The notes below the pieces were generated by a model. It saw only the letters and a list, made by a program, of their open reading frames with translations. It did no database searches and was not told the origin of the DNA. A stretch of DNA of 64,000 nucleotides from NCBI RefSeq assembly GCF_002163585.1, contig NZ_CP015579.1:930001-994000 (forward strand). The letters are read 5' to 3'. This DNA is from Tatumella citrea. Its GTDB lineage: Bacteria; Pseudomonadota; Gammaproteobacteria; Enterobacterales; Enterobacteriaceae. Within the stretch, counting starts at the first letter, position 1. Each line of letters opens with the position of its first letter. The translations under genes were made by a program, and so were the position numbers. Below, in pieces: positions 42,882 to 51,168 of this stretch.

Positions 42882-43457
42882 TCAGGGCTGGTGCAGTTGC
42901 TGTGAACGGAGGGTGAGAAACATATGCACTATCCCCATAGTGGCGTGAGCCCAGAAATAAGTTTCAATATAGAGAGTCAGAGCCTTATGCAGATGCAGCA
43001 CCTGATGTGTCAGTGCTGCATTGGCACCATAGTAAGTATTCAGCACAAACCATAACCCACCGCAAACCGCAACAATATGCAAAGAAACCACACCCAGCCC
43101 CTGAACTGTTGCAGCGATACCGCCCGGATGAGCATCGGGTAAGCGTAATTTGCCGAGTGTTCTGAAATCTTGCATGATTCCGCGAAAATCCAGACAGACC
43201 CAGGAGAAATAATACCGGAAACCACGTTGGGAGAGCATCCAGCATAACATGATGACGCCACAAAACAGTGTGGCAAATCCTGCAATAATATGCAGCCATG
43301 TCACTATGCCCGTCACAGACCATTGTCCCAGGGCTTTACGTTGAGTCAGATTGGAATTTATGATTTGAGCCAGAATCAGCAGTGCTACCAGTATATGAAG
43401 ATGACGAAAAAAACGGCTGTCCTGATGTGGAAGTACATCACGGATACGATAAACCAT
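42882..43457 (-). CDS. Cytochrome b561-type membrane protein
   Basis: A 191-residue inner-membrane protein with about four hydrophobic helices. Histidines suited to b-type haem ligation are spread over the helices: His19/His21 (FRHLHILVALL), His56 (TWLHIIAGF), His127 (SLHIVAV) and His155/157 (VLHLHKALTLY). The loop QDFRTLGKLRLPDAHPGG resembles Ni-Fe-hydrogenase-type cytochrome b and b561 relatives (DUF-like 'cytochrome b/b6 domain' proteins). It probably passes electrons between quinol and a periplasmic partner; the partner is not visible here. It is not part of the E. coli argA region and is the first gene of the accessory block. Confidence 0.75.
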   Translation of the reverse strand: MVYRIRDVLPHQDSRFFRHLHILVALLILAQIINSNLTQRKALGQWSVTGIVTWLHIIAGFATLFCGVIMLCWMLSQRGFRYYFSWVCLDFRGIMQDFRTLGKLRLPDAHPGGIAATVQGLGVVSLHIVAVCGGLWFVLNTYYGANAALTHQVLHLHKALTLYIETYFWAHATMGIVHMFLTLRSQQLHQP

Positions 43458-43520
43458 AATATCAGTCTCTGTTGGTGGGTTTTTTTAGTAATGTGGCAGG
43501 GAATCCTTAGCAAAACCTTA

Positions 43521-43534
43521 ATATCTTAAGATAT
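43521..43534. repeat. Perfect 14-bp palindrome near the cytochrome promoter
   Basis: ATATCTTAAGATAT is a perfect palindrome 64-77 bp upstream of the cytochrome b561 gene start. It may be an operator; no known regulator motif is matched convincingly. Confidence 0.4.
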
Positions 43535-43887
43535 GTCATTGTTGTTGAGTCTTTCGCTGATGCCGACCCGTACCTGAAACCTCAGGGGGCCCATATTCCC
43601 TTTTATTGTACTCAAGCCTGTGAACTTTGGCCGGTAGTGGTTGGTTTGCCAAAACCAGCGGCTGGCAAGGGGGATTAAACCCACTCTGTGCCTGTTCTCC
43701 CGGGAAAATAGTTCAGTATGAATTTTTAAACTCTGACAGTCGTTGCCGCACGGAGGGTTTTTCAAGGCATGACCGGTTGACTGTTTCACCGCGCAGTAAG
43801 ATGGCTTTACGAAAGGCAACTGAATGAAAAGATGGCTGTTCGTTATCACTGAGAGCATATAGCCGGGATGAGTAAACACTGAAATTT

Positions 43888-43908
43888 CCCCCTGCCAACG
43901 GCAGAGGG
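43888..43908 (-). terminator. Possible terminator of the antiporter gene
   Basis: On the minus strand CCCTCTGCC-GTT-GGCAGGGGG forms a 9-bp stem with one G-U pair, followed by AAATTTC. The U-tract is weak. Confidence 0.35.
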
Positions 43909-43919
43909 AACAGGGAAGG

Positions 43920-45248
43920 TCAGACCGCAGAAGAAGGAGAATCAGACGGAGTATCACGACCTGCCAGAAATCCGTAGAAGATATAACCTATCAGGGTAAT
44001 AATGGTTCCGCCGAAGACGGCTTCCACACCACATGAATACACTCCGTAAATGCTGTACAGCACTGCAAAAGTACTCACCAGAGAGGCGATACGGTACTGA
44101 GATTTGCTGACATGGTTTTTCTGCATCATAACCTGCAGGCCAGTCATCGACAGTACATAAGGGACCATGTTGATAAATACTGCCAGGTTCAACAGCATAT
44201 TGAACTGTTTCAACAGGTTCGGAGAGATAGTCATTGATGCCAGCAATAATTCCAGTACCAGCATAATCAGCATACCGGCAATGGGGGCATCACTTTTGCT
44301 GATTTTACCGAAGATTTTCGGAAATAATTTGTCGTCAGCCGCGGCTTTAGAGACCTGAGCATTGGTGAACTGCCAACCCAGCAGAGAGCCGATGCAGGCG
44401 ATAACTGCCAGCGCAGTGATGATCTGTCCGACCAGTGGGGTAAACATCATGGAGAACACCAGACCAAACGGCGCATCTGAGGTTACCAGTTGATCATTAG
44501 GCACAATGCCCTGAATTACTGTTGTCGAAGCAATGTAGACGATGGCCGCAAATCCGGTACCAAACAGGCAAGCCAGCGGGACGTTACGTTCCGGGTTTTC
44601 GACCGCATCCGAGTTAGCACCTGCTGACTCTACTCCAAGGAATGCCCATAAAGTCAGTGAAATACCGGAAGAAATGGCACTGCCGGTAGACATTGAATGT
44701 GGATTCCACGCGGCACTGAAAATGGCCGGATCGAACCAGAACCAGCCGATCACTGACAGACCGGCAACCGGTATGATTATTCCCCAGATGGTGAAGCTTG
44801 AGATTTTCCCGGTGATTTTTGGTCCTTTAAAGTTAGCGACCATGGTAACCACTAATATTGCAATTACAGTCAGGAAGGTATGGACCGGTGAGCTTTTAAT
44901 CCATGGCGCAAACGGTGCCATATAGCCTGCAGCGGAGACGGCAATAGCAACACAACTGATAACCAGACAGATGTAGTAAGTGTAAGACGCAATAAAAAAG
45001 GCTGATTTTCCGTGGGCTTCCTCAGCATATGCGGACATACCTCCGGCACGACGACACAAGGCACCGCACTTTGCAAAAGTATAGGCAATGCACATCGCCC
45101 CGACTACGGTAACAACCCATGATAAAATTGAAATTGCTCCGGTCTCAGCGAGGCTGGCAGGCAGCATGATGATACCTGAGCCCATCATATTCACGGCGAC
45201 AAGGACCGTCAGATCGACGACTCCCATTTTCCTGGAATTTGAAGCCAT
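43920..45248 (-). CDS. PotE/CadB/AdiC-type amino-acid/amine antiporter
   Basis: A 442-residue APC-family inner-membrane protein with about 12 membrane segments. The N-terminus KMGVVDLTVLVAVNMMGSGIIMLPASLAETG is closest to E. coli PotE (ornithine/putrescine exchanger), with the GSGI substrate-backbone loop in TM1 and LWAFLGVESAGANSDAVENPERNVP in TM6. Divergently transcribed from the arginine decarboxylase, it most likely imports arginine and exports agmatine, completing a proton-consuming cycle; E. coli uses AdiC for this, which is less similar. The specificity is inferred from context. AGGAG is seven bases before the ATG. An FNR-type box lies 136 bp upstream. Confidence 0.88.
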   Translation of the reverse strand: MASNSRKMGVVDLTVLVAVNMMGSGIIMLPASLAETGAISILSWVVTVVGAMCIAYTFAKCGALCRRAGGMSAYAEEAHGKSAFFIASYTYYICLVISCVAIAVSAAGYMAPFAPWIKSSPVHTFLTVIAILVVTMVANFKGPKITGKISSFTIWGIIIPVAGLSVIGWFWFDPAIFSAAWNPHSMSTGSAISSGISLTLWAFLGVESAGANSDAVENPERNVPLACLFGTGFAAIVYIASTTVIQGIVPNDQLVTSDAPFGLVFSMMFTPLVGQIITALAVIACIGSLLGWQFTNAQVSKAAADDKLFPKIFGKISKSDAPIAGMLIMLVLELLLASMTISPNLLKQFNMLLNLAVFINMVPYVLSMTGLQVMMQKNHVSKSQYRIASLVSTFAVLYSIYGVYSCGVEAVFGGTIITLIGYIFYGFLAGRDTPSDSPSSAV

Positions 45249-45383
45249 AATATTCTCCTGGTTTAAAATTATCTGATATTCATATTTGTATTTAAATTCT
45301 TAATTTTTGAATTTAAATATTTTTGGTTATTTTTGAATTAACTTTTCTGGCTTCACATTAAATGTAATTATCTTAAATTGAAA

Positions 45384-45397
45384 TTGATCAATATCAA
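45384..45397. promoter_or_regulatory. FNR box (perfect consensus)
   Basis: TTGAT-CAAT-ATCAA matches the FNR consensus TTGAT-N4-ATCAA at every base. It lies 136 bp from the antiporter start and about 336 bp from the decarboxylase start, so it probably acts first on the antiporter promoter. This suggests anaerobic control. Confidence 0.65.
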
Positions 45398-45512
45398 TAA
45401 TTAGCCGGTTAAATTTATTTTAATATAAATATTCGGATGCCATTTTTTAACAAAAAAATATCATATATTGTTGTTTTTAAATGAATTTATTTTTGTGCTT
45501 TCATTAAGTGTT

Positions 45513-45547
45513 TATATTAAAAGTCATGACTAATGAATTAGTATTTA
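45513..45547. promoter_or_regulatory. Tandem ARG-box-like sites
   Basis: TATATTAAAAGTCA (45513-45526) and TGAATTAGTATTTA (45534-45547) match the ArgR consensus TGAAT-WWWW-ATTCA at 11-12 of 14 positions each. Their starts are exactly 21 bp apart, as in true ArgR operators. They are 186-220 bp upstream of the decarboxylase. AT-rich DNA raises the chance of single matches, but the spacing supports function. Confidence 0.55.
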
Positions 45548-45655
45548 AATGTTTTTTTTTACGAAAAAATAGACTGGAAAAAATAATTTCTATCGTTTAA
45601 TTTCATCTTCATCAGGTCAGGTTGATTATCTTTTTGACTTTCTCACCAGGAAATA

Positions 45656-45690
45656 CATCGCTTATTTCTCATCATTATAAATAAGCGATG
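45656..45690. repeat. Perfect 12-bp inverted repeat in the decarboxylase leader
   Basis: CATCGCTTATTT and AAATAAGCGATG are separated by 11 bases, ending 42 bp before the adiA start. It could be a dimeric-regulator operator or a 5'-UTR stem-loop. No T-run follows, so it is not a terminator. Confidence 0.6.
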
Positions 45691-45732
45691 CACGCCCTGA
45701 CCGTTTATACAAAGTATAATAATGAGGATCTT

Positions 45733-48015
45733 ATGTGTGATAAAAATTATTTAGTGGTTGTCAATAAAGCCCTAAGTACCACAACACCACTCACTCCGAT
45801 TGAGCAGACAGTTGAGAAAATTACTACTTCACTGTTCAGTAAAGGCGAACAGGTTCGGTTTTCTGCCAACTATGCAGAAGCCACCAACTATGTCAGCTCA
45901 ACGGCACCGGTCGATTGCGTGATGCTGGAGTGGGCACCAGAGAAGAGTGCCGAAATTACGGGCTTCTTAAAACAACTGCGTATCCGTCATGAAAAGGCTC
46001 CGGCATTTTTACTGATTAATTCTCATCAGGATAATGCTTCGGTACCTGCGGAGATCATGGGTGATGTCAGTGAAACTTTCCTGGTACTGGATGACACTAC
46101 TGATTTTATCGTGGGTCGTTTGCAGTCAGCCGTAGCACGTTATGAAAAAGTCATTATGCCGCCTTTGATGGCTGCGATGATGAAATATGCTAAAGAGAAA
46201 GAGTACTCATGGTCAGCGCCTGGTCATCAGGGCGGTATTGGTTTCTGTAAAACTCCGGTTGGCCGTAAATTCTTCGACTTTTATGGCGAAAATATTTTCC
46301 GGACTGATATGGGAATCGAAAGGGCTTGCCTGGGATCGATGCTGGATCATACCGGAGCCTTCGGTGAGAGTGAAAAATACATCGCCGGTGTATTTGGTGC
46401 TGACCGCTCTTATTCGCTGGTTGTCGGAACATCCGGGGCAAACCGCACTATTATGCAGGCCTGCTGTACTGACCAGGATATTGCCATCTGTGACCGTAAC
46501 AGCCATAAATCTATCGAACAGGGTTTAATGCTGACCGGCGTTCATCCGGTTTACATGACCCCGACCCGTAATGCTTACGGGATTATTGGTCCGATTCCTA
46601 AAGCCCAGATGCAGCCTGAAGCGTTGCGCCAGAAGATTAAACAGAACCATTTTGCCAGTGAAGCAGCAAATCAGCGCCCGGCTTATAGTGTCGTAACTAA
46701 CTGTACCTATGATGGTCTGATTTATAACGGTGACACTATTCAGCAGTTACTGGGACAGAGCTGTGATCGTATTCACTATGATGAAGCCTGGTTCGGTTAC
46801 TCGCGCTTCAACCCGATTTATAAAGGCTTCCACGCCATGCGTGGTGATAAAGCTCAGCATACTGCTGATCAGCCGACAATTTTTGCTACGCATTCAACCC
46901 ACAAATTACTGAATGCGTTGTCTCAGGCCTCCTATATCCATATTCGGGAAGGTCGCGGTAATATTAAACCAGCGCAGTTCAGTCAGGCATACATGATGCA
47001 TGCCACCACCTCGCCTTTATACTCAATTGCCGCATCTAACGATGTTGCTGCGGCGATGATGGAAGGTAATCAGGGGGTCAACCTGACGACCGAAGTGATC
47101 GAAGAGGCTGTGGAGTTCCGCCAGGCTGTAGCACGTTCATTCCGTGAGGCTGAAAAGAATAATGACTGGTTCTTTAAACCCTGGAATGCTCAGACGGTGA
47201 CCTGCCCGCGCACCGGAAATCGTTATGATTTTGCGGATGCTCCGACGGAGTTGCTGGTTAAAGAGCAGTCATGCTGGGCACTTGACCCGCAGGACAGCTG
47301 GCATGGCTTCAGTGATCTGGATGAGAACTGGGTAATGCTCGATCCGGTAAAAGTCAGTCTGTTAACGCCGGGACTGAACAGCGATGGCAGCCTGCAGGAT
47401 AATGGTGTTCCCGCTGCTCTGGTTACCGCATATCTTTCCAGTCTGGGGATTGTGCCGACCCGTACTACCGATTTCCAGGTGATGTTCCTGTTCTCAATGG
47501 GTGTGACCAAAGGTAAATGGGCGACCCTGATGAACAGCCTGATGTCATTTAAAAAGCACTATGATGCAGATGCACTGCTGTCTGAAGTGTTACCTGGTCT
47601 GGTGGAAACCGATCCGGCGCTGTATGGCAATATGACGATGCAGCAACTGGGCCAACGCATGATTTCGTTCCTGAAAACACATAACCCAAGCGAACAGCTT
47701 AACAAAGCCTATTCGACGCTGCCACAGATGGATATGCTGCCACGTGATGCTTACACTCAGCTGGTCAGGGATAATACTGAGCTGGTCTCCATTTATGAGC
47801 TGGCAGGGCGCACCGCAGCGAACTCCGTTATCCCTTATCCACCAGGAATCCCGATGCTGATGTCTGGTGAGAATTTCGGTGATAAAAACAGTCCGCAAAT
47901 TGCTTATCTGCAGGCGCTTCAGGCATGGGATGATGCCTTCCCGGGTTTCGAACATGAAACCGAAGGGGCAGAAAAAGAGCACGGTGTTTATCACGTGATG
48001 TGTGTCAAAGCCTGA
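45733..48015 (+). CDS. adiA: Biodegradative arginine decarboxylase (AdiA-like)
   Basis: A 760-residue fold-I PLP decarboxylase (E. coli AdiA 755 aa) that converts arginine to agmatine, using one proton. A wing domain (about 1-130) precedes the PLP core with YSWSAPGHQGGIGF, TSGANRTIMQAC, NSHKSIEQGLMLTGVHPVYM, HYDEAWFGYSRFNPIY and the Schiff-base Lys391 in HSTHKLLNALSQ. FADAPTELL, TRTTDFQVMFLFSMG and NSVIPYPPGIPMLMSGENFG match AdiA, against LdcI/CadA or SpeF. I use ATG 45733 with GAGG seven bases upstream; a frame-open ATG at 45688 lies in the inverted repeat. It is flanked by an antiporter and followed by its own terminator. Confidence 0.93.
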   Translation: MCDKNYLVVVNKALSTTTPLTPIEQTVEKITTSLFSKGEQVRFSANYAEATNYVSSTAPVDCVMLEWAPEKSAEITGFLKQLRIRHEKAPAFLLINSHQDNASVPAEIMGDVSETFLVLDDTTDFIVGRLQSAVARYEKVIMPPLMAAMMKYAKEKEYSWSAPGHQGGIGFCKTPVGRKFFDFYGENIFRTDMGIERACLGSMLDHTGAFGESEKYIAGVFGADRSYSLVVGTSGANRTIMQACCTDQDIAICDRNSHKSIEQGLMLTGVHPVYMTPTRNAYGIIGPIPKAQMQPEALRQKIKQNHFASEAANQRPAYSVVTNCTYDGLIYNGDTIQQLLGQSCDRIHYDEAWFGYSRFNPIYKGFHAMRGDKAQHTADQPTIFATHSTHKLLNALSQASYIHIREGRGNIKPAQFSQAYMMHATTSPLYSIAASNDVAAAMMEGNQGVNLTTEVIEEAVEFRQAVARSFREAEKNNDWFFKPWNAQTVTCPRTGNRYDFADAPTELLVKEQSCWALDPQDSWHGFSDLDENWVMLDPVKVSLLTPGLNSDGSLQDNGVPAALVTAYLSSLGIVPTRTTDFQVMFLFSMGVTKGKWATLMNSLMSFKKHYDADALLSEVLPGLVETDPALYGNMTMQQLGQRMISFLKTHNPSEQLNKAYSTLPQMDMLPRDAYTQLVRDNTELVSIYELAGRTAANSVIPYPPGIPMLMSGENFGDKNSPQIAYLQALQAWDDAFPGFEHETEGAEKEHGVYHVMCVKA

Positions 48016-48077
48016 TAAATATGCCGTTCTGTTCATTAATTATGAAACAGAACGGAAATATCCATAGTAATAATAAT

Positions 48078-48119
48078 CTGGCAGCAGTGGAGAATACCCA
48101 CTGCTGCCAGCGTGTTTTT
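48078..48119 (+). terminator. Rho-independent terminator of adiA
   Basis: Perfect 13-bp stem CTGGCAGCAGTGG/CCACTGCTGCCAG (seven-base loop) followed by CGTGTTTTT. It shows that adiA and the downstream argR paralog are separate transcription units. Confidence 0.85.
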
Positions 48120-48279
48120 AAATTTCTTGAAATAATTATTCAGTTTTCAATGATCAGATTAATTAATGTGAGGGAATGAACGGATGCTTTTCGTGTAATA
48201 AAATGTTAGCCGATGTATTTATCTGTAGGGGGTGTTTACAGAGACTTAAGTGGCGGGGTAGTTATATGATTAAAGTCAA

Positions 48280-48293
48280 TGAATGATTATTCC
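48280..48293. promoter_or_regulatory. ARG-box-like site upstream of the argR paralog
   Basis: TGAATGATTATTCC fits the ArgR 14-mer core at 12 of 14 positions, with suitable A/T flanks. It lies about 95-108 bp before the start of the argR paralog. No second box at 21 bp is convincing. Confidence 0.5.
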
Positions 48294-48387
48294 GTGAATA
48301 TTTATCGGGAATATTTTATCAGGAAATGGTATTTCTTATTCCGACAAAAATAATATTCCCTATGTATTCATTAATTCAGAGAACACC

Positions 48388-48867
48388 ATGACTGATACCA
48401 TCAAAAACATTAAACATTTAGACCTCGATAAGGCCTTTCAGCAACTGCTAAGAGAGGAACGATTTGGTTCACAAGCCGAGTTTGTAGAGTATCTGACTGC
48501 GAATGGCTTCGCCCATATAAACCAGTCGAAAGTATCACGTATGCTGACCAGCTATGGCGCGGTCAGAACCCGCAATGCCAGAATGGAAATGGTCTATTGT
48601 CTGCCGGCAGAGCGGGGGATACCTACCGCGAAAACCACCCTGAAAAGTTCTGTGCTGAGTGTTGAAACCAATGACTGGATGGTCGTCGCACATACGGTTC
48701 CCGGTGCGGCACCTTTGATTGCCCGCTTGCTTGATTCCTGCGGAAAATCGGATGGTATTCTGGGAACTGTAGCCGGCGATGATACTATATTTGTCGTTCC
48801 GGTAATTGGTATTAATTCTCAACAGTTACAGCAGTCAGTAATAGGGATTCTGAATTCAGATGGCTGA
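48388..48867 (+). CDS. ArgR-family arginine-responsive repressor (paralog)
   Basis: A 159-residue ArgR protein (E. coli ArgR 156 aa). The winged helix-turn-helix is intact ([44 protein letters not shown]). The C-terminal hexamer domain has [15 protein letters not shown] and [10 protein letters not shown] with the arginine-binding aspartates Asp131-Asp132. The residue equal to Gln106 of E. coli ArgR, a ligand-site residue, is proline here (Pro109), so affinity or specificity may differ. As argR normally lies next to mdh, this copy is probably a second, dedicated regulator of the adjacent arginine genes. An ARG-box-like site suggests autoregulation. Confidence 0.9.
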
Positions 48868-48928
48868 AGAATATAACTATTCGGGTTAACTGATTATATT
48901 TTCTGTGGTCAATTTATGAAGGTGATTT

Positions 48929-50674
48929 ATGGATATTAAATCCGTCCTGGCCGAACGGGTCAGACTGGCGATGGAAGAGAGTAATATAACAACAGATAAA
49001 TCTGTTTCTGTACGTCCGTCTGGCCGACCTGAGTTCGGCGATTATCAGATAGATAGTATGATGGCTCTTGGAAAATCTCAGGGGCAAAATCCATTATTGT
49101 TAGCTGAGCAGGTGGCCGGGCAGCTGATGAATAATAAACAGAGCAGAGAAATTATTGACCGGGCTGAAGCCGTCAAGCCCGGATTTATTAATCTGTTTCT
49201 GAATGAGCAGTGGATACTGCATCAGACGGGGCTGGCATTTAAAGATGCCCGGTTGTCGGTCGCGAAGCAGCCGGCACAGCATGTGGTGGTGGATTATTCA
49301 TCACCTAATGTGGCTAAAGAGATGCATGTGGGCCATTTGCGTTCAACCATTATTGGTGATGCCAGCGTCAGGACTCTGGAGTTCCTGGGGCATAAGGTCA
49401 CACGGGTGAATCATATCGGTGACTGGGGCACCCAGTTTGGTATGTTGATTGCCTATCTGGAAAAAGCTGAGAATGACGGTGATATTTCCCTGTCTGACCT
49501 TGAAGGATTTTATCGCGCCGCCAAAAAATTGTATGACGAAGATCCTGATTTTGCACTGAGAGCCCGCAGCTATGTAGTTAAGCTGCAGCAAGGGGACGAA
49601 TATTGTCGCCGGATGTGGCATAAGCTGGTGGATATTTCGATGACGCAAAACCAGAAAAATTACGACCGGTTAGGCGTCTCGTTGTCTCCCGCCGATATTC
49701 GCGGCGAAAGTTCTTATAATGCAATGCTGCCAGAGATAGTTAATGACCTGCTGGATCGCGGTATTGCGACTGAAGAGTCTGAGACTGTCATGGTGTATCT
49801 GGATAACTATCGCAATAAACAGGGCGAGCCGATGGGGGTAATCATCCGTAAACAGGATGGCGGATATTTGTATACCACTACCGATATTGCCTGCGCCAAA
49901 TATCGTTATCAGACGCTGCATGCCGATCGGGTTCTCTATTATATTGATGCGCGGCAGCATCAGCATTTAATGATGGCCTGGGAAATCGTTCGCCGTGCCG
50001 GATATGTTCCACCATCCGTTAGCCTGGAACATCATAAATTTGGCATGATGCTGGATAAAGAGGGCAAACCGTTTAAAACCCGTGAGGGAGGAACCATTCG
50101 CCTGGCGGAACTGCTTGAAGAAGCCGTGGTTCGTGCCCATAAACTGGTCAGCGAAAAATCACCGCATTTGCCAGCAGAAGAGCTGAGTGAACTTTCGGAA
50201 GTGATTGGTATTGGAGCGGTTAAATATGCAGATCTGTCGAAAAACCGTATAACAGACTATGTATTTGACTGGGATTTAATGCTGAGTTTTGAAGGCAATA
50301 CCGCACCTTATATTCAGTATGCCTGCGCGCGGATTAGCTCGATTTTGCGTAAAGCTGAGCTGAGCCAGTCTCAGACTGACTCTCTGGTGACTGATCTGCG
50401 ATTTACTTCGGGCGCAGAGAGAAGTCTGGCGGTGAAGATTCTGCAATTTGAGGAAGCACTACAGGGTGTGGCACGGGAAGGGATGCCTAATATCATGTGT
50501 AATTATCTCTACGAACTGGCTTCCCTGTTTTCCGGGTTTTATGCGGCATCGCCTATTCTGAATCATGATCATCCGGAAGAGCGGCAAAGCCGGTTGGCAC
50601 TGGCGGCGTTAACCGGGCGGGTGTTAAAGCAGGGTATGGATACGCTGGGGCTTAAGGTGCCCGAAAGGATGTAA
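48929..50674 (+). CDS. Arginyl-tRNA synthetase (ArgS-type, probably a second copy)
   Basis: A 581-residue class I synthetase (E. coli ArgS 577 aa) that charges tRNA-Arg. Present: the N-terminal tRNA-D-loop domain, the HIGH-type motif [13 protein letters not shown] (His133-His136), [13 protein letters not shown], the KMSKS-equivalent region GKPFKTREG (about 379-387), [18 protein letters not shown], and the anticodon-binding DALR domain ending LGLKVPERM. It starts 61 bp after the argR paralog and they likely form one operon. E. coli argS is far from this locus, so a second housekeeping copy elsewhere is expected but cannot be seen. AAGG precedes ATG with good spacing. It ends with a bidirectional terminator shared with the tRNA array. 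Confidence 0.93.
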
Positions 50675-50712
50675 ACTCTGGCAGGCCGCGGGCCTGCTAT
50701 AATTTTCTACGC

Positions 50713-50758: not shown

Positions 50759-50835
<77 letters not shown>

Positions 50836-50869
50836 TCCGTGTGACTGTCATTAGTGCTTTACATTGTAT

Positions 50870-50946
<77 letters not shown>

Positions 50947-50980
50947 TCCGTGTGACTGTCATTAGTGCTTTACATTGTAT

Positions 50981-51057
<77 letters not shown>

Positions 51058-51091
51058 TCCGCGTAACTATCTTTACTGCTTAACAATGTAT

Positions 51092-51168
<77 letters not shown>

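Follow-up and report, generated by a model that had tools for sequence, protein, structure and literature searches.

The stretch of DNA analysed here, in the following called the window, comprises 64,000 nucleotides of Tatumella citrea (contig NZ_CP015579.1, positions 930,001 to 994,000), and contains, between argA and a group of tRNA-Met genes, the genes of a PotE-type antiporter, an AdiA-type arginine decarboxylase, a paralog of the arginine repressor (ArgR2) and a second arginyl-tRNA synthetase (ArgS2). A sequence-only reading of this DNA had recognized these four genes together with the gene of a b561-type cytochrome, and all five are confirmed by family models, for which profile scores were compared with NCBIfam cut-offs and domains were assigned by Pfam-type models (Table 1; coordinates are those of the whole window). 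The arginine unit is real and recurs in other genomes, and its sensor and its synthetase are extra copies that are tied to one clade of AdiA.

The antiporter gene is divergent from adiA, and its product scores 546.3 with the PotE model TIGR04299, slightly below the cut-off of 560, and 350.7 with the AdiC model, the cut-off of which is 574. In the case of adiA, the likelier start is position 45733, which is preceded by GAGG and yields 760 residues, as in Tatumella morbirosei; the protein contains the motif HSTHKLLNAL, which we take to be the lysine site for pyridoxal phosphate (PLP). ArgR2 has the DNA-binding and the C-terminal domain of ArgR, with a score for TIGR01529 (129.5) slightly below the cut-off of 130.45, and ArgS2 is a predicted class I arginyl-tRNA synthetase in which catalytic, DALR and N-terminal domains are all present. 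The genes argR2 and argS2 are separated by 61 bases, and the hairpins 3' of adiA and of argS2 make it likely that there are three transcripts, one of the antiporter gene, one of adiA and one of argR2-argS2. No regulator gene other than argR2 is seen among the open reading frames (ORFs) of the cluster; no search was made for an AdiY encoded outside of it.

Table 1. Features in and around the arginine cluster of the window
Feature	Position	Strand	Support or remark
Cytochrome b561-like gene	42882-43457	-	PF01292
PotE-type antiporter, presumed arginine/agmatine exchanger	43920-45248	-	PRK10655 627.7 bits, cut-off 409
ARG-box-like pair, 21-base spacing	45287-45321		38-73 bases upstream of antiporter start codon
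adiA, degradative-type PLP-dependent arginine decarboxylase	45688-48015	+	NF011603 1291.4 bits, cut-off 1167
Strong two-way terminator-like hairpin, 13-14 pairs	48078-48110		3' of adiA
Single ARG-box-like site, weak	48280-48293		Upstream of argR2; score 10.5 of 12, p 0.037 by shuffling, uncorrected
argR2, arginine repressor paralog	48388-48867	+	PRK05066 209.2, cut-off 194
argS2, second arginyl-tRNA synthetase, full length	48929-50674	+	TIGR00456 577.1, cut-off 261.65
Terminator-like hairpin	50679-50699	+	3' of argS2
Four tRNA-Met(CAU) genes	50759-51168		Downstream of argS2

Recurrence and history of the cluster

The sequence-only reading had regarded the repressor and synthetase genes of the cluster as second copies, and indeed they are not the sole ones, as argR is present three times and argS twice in the T. 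citrea genome. The housekeeping-type ArgR is 59% and the third ArgR 30% identical to ArgR2, and ArgS2 shares 62% identity with the housekeeping-type ArgS. The housekeeping-type argR (G000:C1:175083-175550) adjoins a pair of genes for HtrA-like proteases, beyond which there are two genes for ribosomal proteins, and the housekeeping-type argS is found near flagellar and chemotaxis genes (all neighbours named by eye). Between this argR and the neighbouring protease gene there is a gap of about 365 bases (L006:6552-6916), which leaves no room for mdh, a gene that in E. coli presumably lies between argR and that protease gene. The third, divergent ArgR (G000:C1:260571-260981; L007:5551-6045) is encoded beside genes of an arginine deiminase, a carbamate kinase and an ornithine carbamoyltransferase (by eye); the genome has two arginine-degrading routes, each with an ArgR neighbour.

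Neighbourhoods of adiA, argR and argS recur among 392 genomes of the family, and separate housekeeping argR and argS genes accompany them. At a match threshold of E<=1e-200, AdiA was found in 82 of these genomes, 12 of which have it at 75-100% identity, 41 at 57-60% (the E. coli type; E. coli AdiA itself is about 59% identical) and 29 at 45-49%; the AdiA of T. morbirosei is 98% identical. No AdiA was detected at this threshold in 368 other genomes of a class-wide sample, and among plasmids 399 records had a match, three of them at 60-80% identity. All 12 genomes of the clade with at least 75% identity have the argR paralog in the cluster (on the opposite strand in the genome G137), and 11 have the antiporter gene beside adiA, the contig of the twelfth (G137) beginning 747 bases before adiA. 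A second argS is part of the cluster in ten of the 12, in one case (G283) interrupted by a stop. In the 41 genomes with the E. coli-type AdiA, no second argS was found at E<=1e-100 (40 have one match, G281 has none), and the difference between 10/12 and 0/41 gives a Fisher value of 3e-9, which, as the genomes are related, is not a strict probability.

Seen from the side of the synthetase, 12 of the 392 genomes yield two matches to argS at E<=1e-150, and in all 12 the second copy is of the cluster type, one being a remnant. These genomes are the ten of the AdiA clade plus G098 and G154, so that the two sets of 12 have ten in common. The contig of G098 ends in short tandem repeats (AGCCAGGAGCCAGG..., L009:10096-10883) upstream of argR2, at the place expected for adiA. 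There are 28 genomes without an argS match at E<=1e-150, at least 17 of which are no larger than 0.6 Mb, and a looser search of 149 of the 392 genomes added one genome with several matches, G028, in which the pieces contain stops. ArgR was counted in 24 genomes, namely the 12 of the AdiA clade, G098, G209 and ten controls. In each of the first 14, a housekeeping-type ArgR, which shares 86-100% identity with that of the T. citrea genome, is accompanied by an ArgR2-type copy (53-61%), and a third copy, at 26-31% identity, is found in five Tatumella genomes; none of the ten controls has an ArgR2-type copy, and one of them (G179) has an ArgR at 33%.

In Tatumella and Rosenbergiella, the cluster follows argA (and amiC where this gene is retained) and precedes mltA where the contig extends so far, whereas the flanking ORFs are different in G027, G011, G041, G074, G195, G216 and Pantoea rodasii. 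P. rodasii has its adiA divided between two ORFs and a short argS, and both there and in G041 the gene order is adiA-argS-argR. In E. coli K-12, amiC is located between argA and metVWZ, just as the sequence-only reading had stated. That reading had also included the cytochrome gene in the stretch assigned to its self-contained module, and in this respect only a part of it stands: antiporter, adiA, argR2 and argS2 recur together, but the cytochrome b561 gene had to be rejected as a member, since Tatumella JGM91 has amiC at the same place and the Rosenbergiella ORF there is amiC-like by eye. The cytochrome gene belongs to the site and not to the arginine unit.

Trees of AdiA, antiporter, ArgR and ArgS, made by a quick method, agree broadly with each other in that they group Tatumella with Rosenbergiella and G011 with G074/G195. 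The 13 ArgS proteins encoded in the clusters (module ArgS) form one group apart from the copies of their hosts, with a value of 99 in the Shimodaira-Hasegawa-like approximate likelihood-ratio test (SH-aLRT) and with the rows of P. rodasii and G027 flagged as long. The idea that hosts repeatedly supplied the cluster with their own argS is not supported by the ArgS tree. The ArgR2 grouping has a support of 86, with long branches flagged as meeting, in a tree that includes 22 of 24 housekeeping ArgR loci (L092 and L095 were left out), and the AdiA and antiporter trees come with long-branch warnings on the E. coli outgroups. G216, the cluster of which has no argS2, joins G011/G074/G195 in the trees of AdiA, antiporter and ArgR (support 98, 89 and 89), and this placement favours a loss of argS2 in the lineage of G216.

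Control region and encoded proteins

The consensus of the ARG box is TGAAT-WWWW-ATTCA. Pairs of such boxes were scored in 12 antiporter-adiA intergenic regions, a set that excludes P. rodasii and R. metrosideri as well as the G copies of the same records; such a region is not seen in G137, G098 and G209. In 11 of the 12, the best pair that has a spacing of 20-22 and begins at a distance of 25-60 bases from the antiporter start reaches a score of 17.5-20 out of 24, as compared to an average of about 14.2 in resampled sequence; the spacing is 21 in eight regions and 22 in the three of Rosenbergiella. This tile was chosen after the scan of the whole region had been seen. Eight of the 12 regions, each from a different genus apart from G074 and G195, which belong to the same one, give a joint sum of 140.5 versus 113.6 (standard deviation 3.5, z 7.7), the top of eleven tiles, and as other tiles reach up to z 4.3, AT-richness accounts for part of the signal. 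The true half-site TGAAT, with 140.5, ranks first among 30 permuted half-sites, of which the next reaches 127.0, and among the spacings 14-30 the best is 21 (136.5, next 127.5). In the window, the scan of the whole region finds the best pair elsewhere (45513-45547, 19.5). Upstream of argR2, the best single site reaches p<0.05 (uncorrected) in four of 16 regions, not always at the position of the site in the window.

According to the alignment, ArgR2 retains two conserved motif regions of ArgR, which presumably serve DNA binding and arginine binding. ArgS2 aligns over its full length with the solved structure 4oby, which we take to be that of the E. coli arginyl-tRNA synthetase, and 184 of the 272 columns that are invariant in 33 housekeeping ArgS are kept by all 12 full-length module ArgS. 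The ratio of nonsynonymous to synonymous substitution rates (dN/dS) of ArgS2 is 0.06-0.09 in those three pairs, out of five, that have a finite dS, indicating purifying selection. The computed isoelectric point of ArgS2 is higher than that of ArgS1 in 8/8 genomes compared, but an interpretation as acid adaptation was set aside, as acquired genes that are AT-rich often encode proteins with more lysine. Of the E. coli transporters, PotE shares 54% identity with the antiporter, AdiC 34% and CadB 33%. In AdiC, the residues Asn101, Trp202, Glu208 and Trp293 are functionally important, and Trp202, Glu208 and Trp293 are retained in all 13 module antiporters.

Proposed function and alternatives

It is rather likely that the genes form a transferable unit for the decarboxylation of arginine, which probably serves under acid stress and in which ArgS2 keeps tRNA-Arg charged while arginine is depleted and agmatine builds up. 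The PotE-derived antiporter would swap arginine for agmatine, and AdiA would decarboxylate arginine and thereby use up a proton, presumably upon induction by acid. ArgR2 would sense arginine and, perhaps together with the housekeeping ArgR, act on the ARG boxes of the antiporter-adiA region. ArgS2 would be a condition-specific synthetase that maintains charged tRNA-Arg and may tolerate agmatine, a likely competitor of arginine, or low arginine.

Several observations weigh against this explanation. The AdiA-clade genomes G216 and G137 have no second argS, which means that argS2 is dispensable, and the argS2 of JGM91 carries an in-frame stop. G098 has kept argR2-argS2 and no AdiA of this clade was found in its draft assembly, G209 has an ArgR2-type copy with neither a second argS nor such an AdiA in its draft assembly, and in G154 only a 3' piece of argS2 remains between argA and mltA (L109:7344-8612), apparently the deletion scar of a cluster. 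As to the control, the region of G041 scores 10.5 and is without an ARG-box-like pair, and upstream of argR2 there is no conserved site, not even one common to all Tatumella. As to the proteins, no residue was found that is switched in all module ArgS in comparison to the housekeeping ArgS, and ArgS2 evolves faster than ArgS1 (dN/dS 0.065 versus 0.021 in the pair of the window and T. morbirosei). The module antiporters have a Cys at the position of AdiC Asn101, where AdiC, PotE, CadB and HdcT1 have Asn, and their substrates are therefore uncertain. Moreover, the tyrS gene of the Enterococcus durans tyramine cluster is, by the available part of PMC3315439, seemingly the only tyrS copy of that organism and hence not a spare.

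Losses of single parts as just described would also be expected of chance neighbours or a recent duplication without any functional link, but this is very improbable, as it is contradicted by the recurrence of the same gene set amid different flanks, by the module ArgS being one group that is not sister to the host's own copy, and by the ten genomes shared between 12 and 12 among 392. The PotE-type nature of the antiporter, with 54% identity to PotE and 34% to AdiC, could point to a cluster for polyamine or nitrogen supply, in which agmatine is converted to putrescine and putrescine is exported; by NF011603, AdiA belongs to the degradative type, the E. coli member of which serves acid resistance, and such a supply function is unlikely.

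It would also be conceivable that ArgS2 mainly acts as a sensor or brake that restrains the decarboxylase unit when arginine is short, rather than serving translation. A sensor role has been proposed for the tyrS of tyrosine decarboxylase clusters in the accessible text of PMC3315439, and argR2 and argS2 lie only 61 bases apart; yet ArgR2 already provides an arginine sensor, ArgS2 retains the whole synthetase architecture, and the same text reports that overexpression of E. durans tyrS left tdcA transcript and tyramine unchanged and that no binding of TyrS to promoters of the cluster was seen, which makes such a role improbable. An equally small chance is given to ArgS2 as a resistance to an arginine-like inhibitor, such as a plant analogue, with the proximity to adiA reflecting arginine-rich plant niches. 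The named carriers include Tatumella, Rosenbergiella and Pantoea, which are plant- or flower-associated, but the association is with AdiA, and no gene related to an analogue was noticed beside the cluster.

Comparison with other decarboxylase clusters

A private synthetase had been considered the unusual part of the locus by the sequence-only reading, but it is less so than thought, as the feature is shared by tyrosine and histidine clusters and by the cad-lysU region of E. coli. In E. coli, the genes cadC-cadB-cadA-dtpC-lysU lie in a row, so that antiporter, decarboxylase and second cognate synthetase are lined up as in the arginine cluster; the differences are the amino acid, lysine, the position of dtpC between cadA and lysU, and the annotated regulator CadC in place of an amino-acid repressor. 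According to the part of PMC5078493 that was available, which cites earlier work, LysU is upregulated at moderately low pH and is less sensitive to cadaverine than LysS. This tolerance is the main reason for proposing an agmatine tolerance of ArgS2, and one may tentatively go further and suppose that ArgS2 is specialised for the presence of agmatine and an acidified cytoplasm like LysU for cadaverine, that decarboxylase clusters repeatedly recruit a product-tolerant synthetase, and that arginine use is divided up between three paralogs of ArgR, although this extended view is rather doubtful. If it were true, there would be a housekeeping, a deiminase-linked and a decarboxylase-linked ArgR. The adiA-adiY-adiC genes of E. 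coli, which have no adjoining synthetase, encode an AdiA of the same enzyme family, but where E. coli has AdiY and AdiC, the window cluster has ArgR2, a PotE-type antiporter and a synthetase. This suggests that an ArgR paralog occupies the place that AdiY has beside E. coli adiA.

In the enterococcal tyrS-tdcA-tyrP genes, a cognate synthetase-like gene is likewise found beside a decarboxylase and an antiporter gene, and tyrS and the decarboxylase respond oppositely to tyrosine; unlike in the present case, the host is Gram-positive, tyrS is under T-box control and is seemingly present as a single copy in E. durans. In the part of PMC3315439 at hand, transcription of tyrS is described as maximal at acid pH without tyrosine, and that of tdcA and tyrP as raised by tyrosine. 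Its authors regard it as a general feature of tyramine and histamine clusters that a synthetase gene lies beside them, while also noting clusters without one, and propose that TyrS secures charged tRNA during tyrosine decarboxylation. The histidine decarboxylase cluster of Morganella, hdcT1-hdc-hdcT2-hisRS (PMC12072131, in its available part), follows the same logic with histidine and two antiporters, and none of the four named genes encodes a repressor. The T. citrea genome likewise has a cluster with this layout (G000:C1:4099345-4104700; L061:6345-11700), where the PLP-dependent histidine decarboxylase, the first HdcT-like antiporter and HisRS score above the NCBIfam cut-offs and the second antiporter below.

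The arginine cluster has a decarboxylase, an exchanger and a cognate synthetase, with a separate housekeeping synthetase in the same genome and in those of relatives, and thus looks like the arginine counterpart of the tyrosine, histidine and lysine decarboxylase clusters with their own synthetase. No description of an arginine version was recognised among the matches listed from the openly licensed (CC0/CC BY/CC BY-SA) subset of PubMed Central, which does not cover subscription papers. The kind of cluster is already known; its form for arginine, with a paralog of ArgR and an antiporter of the PotE type, appears new within the literature searched. As there are clear gains and losses that can be compared, and as two enzymes are present in one genome, it becomes testable why decarboxylase clusters recruit synthetases. 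Arginine would join tyrosine, histidine and lysine as an amino acid the decarboxylase genes of which travel together with a synthetase of their own, the housekeeping copy being retained in the same genomes.

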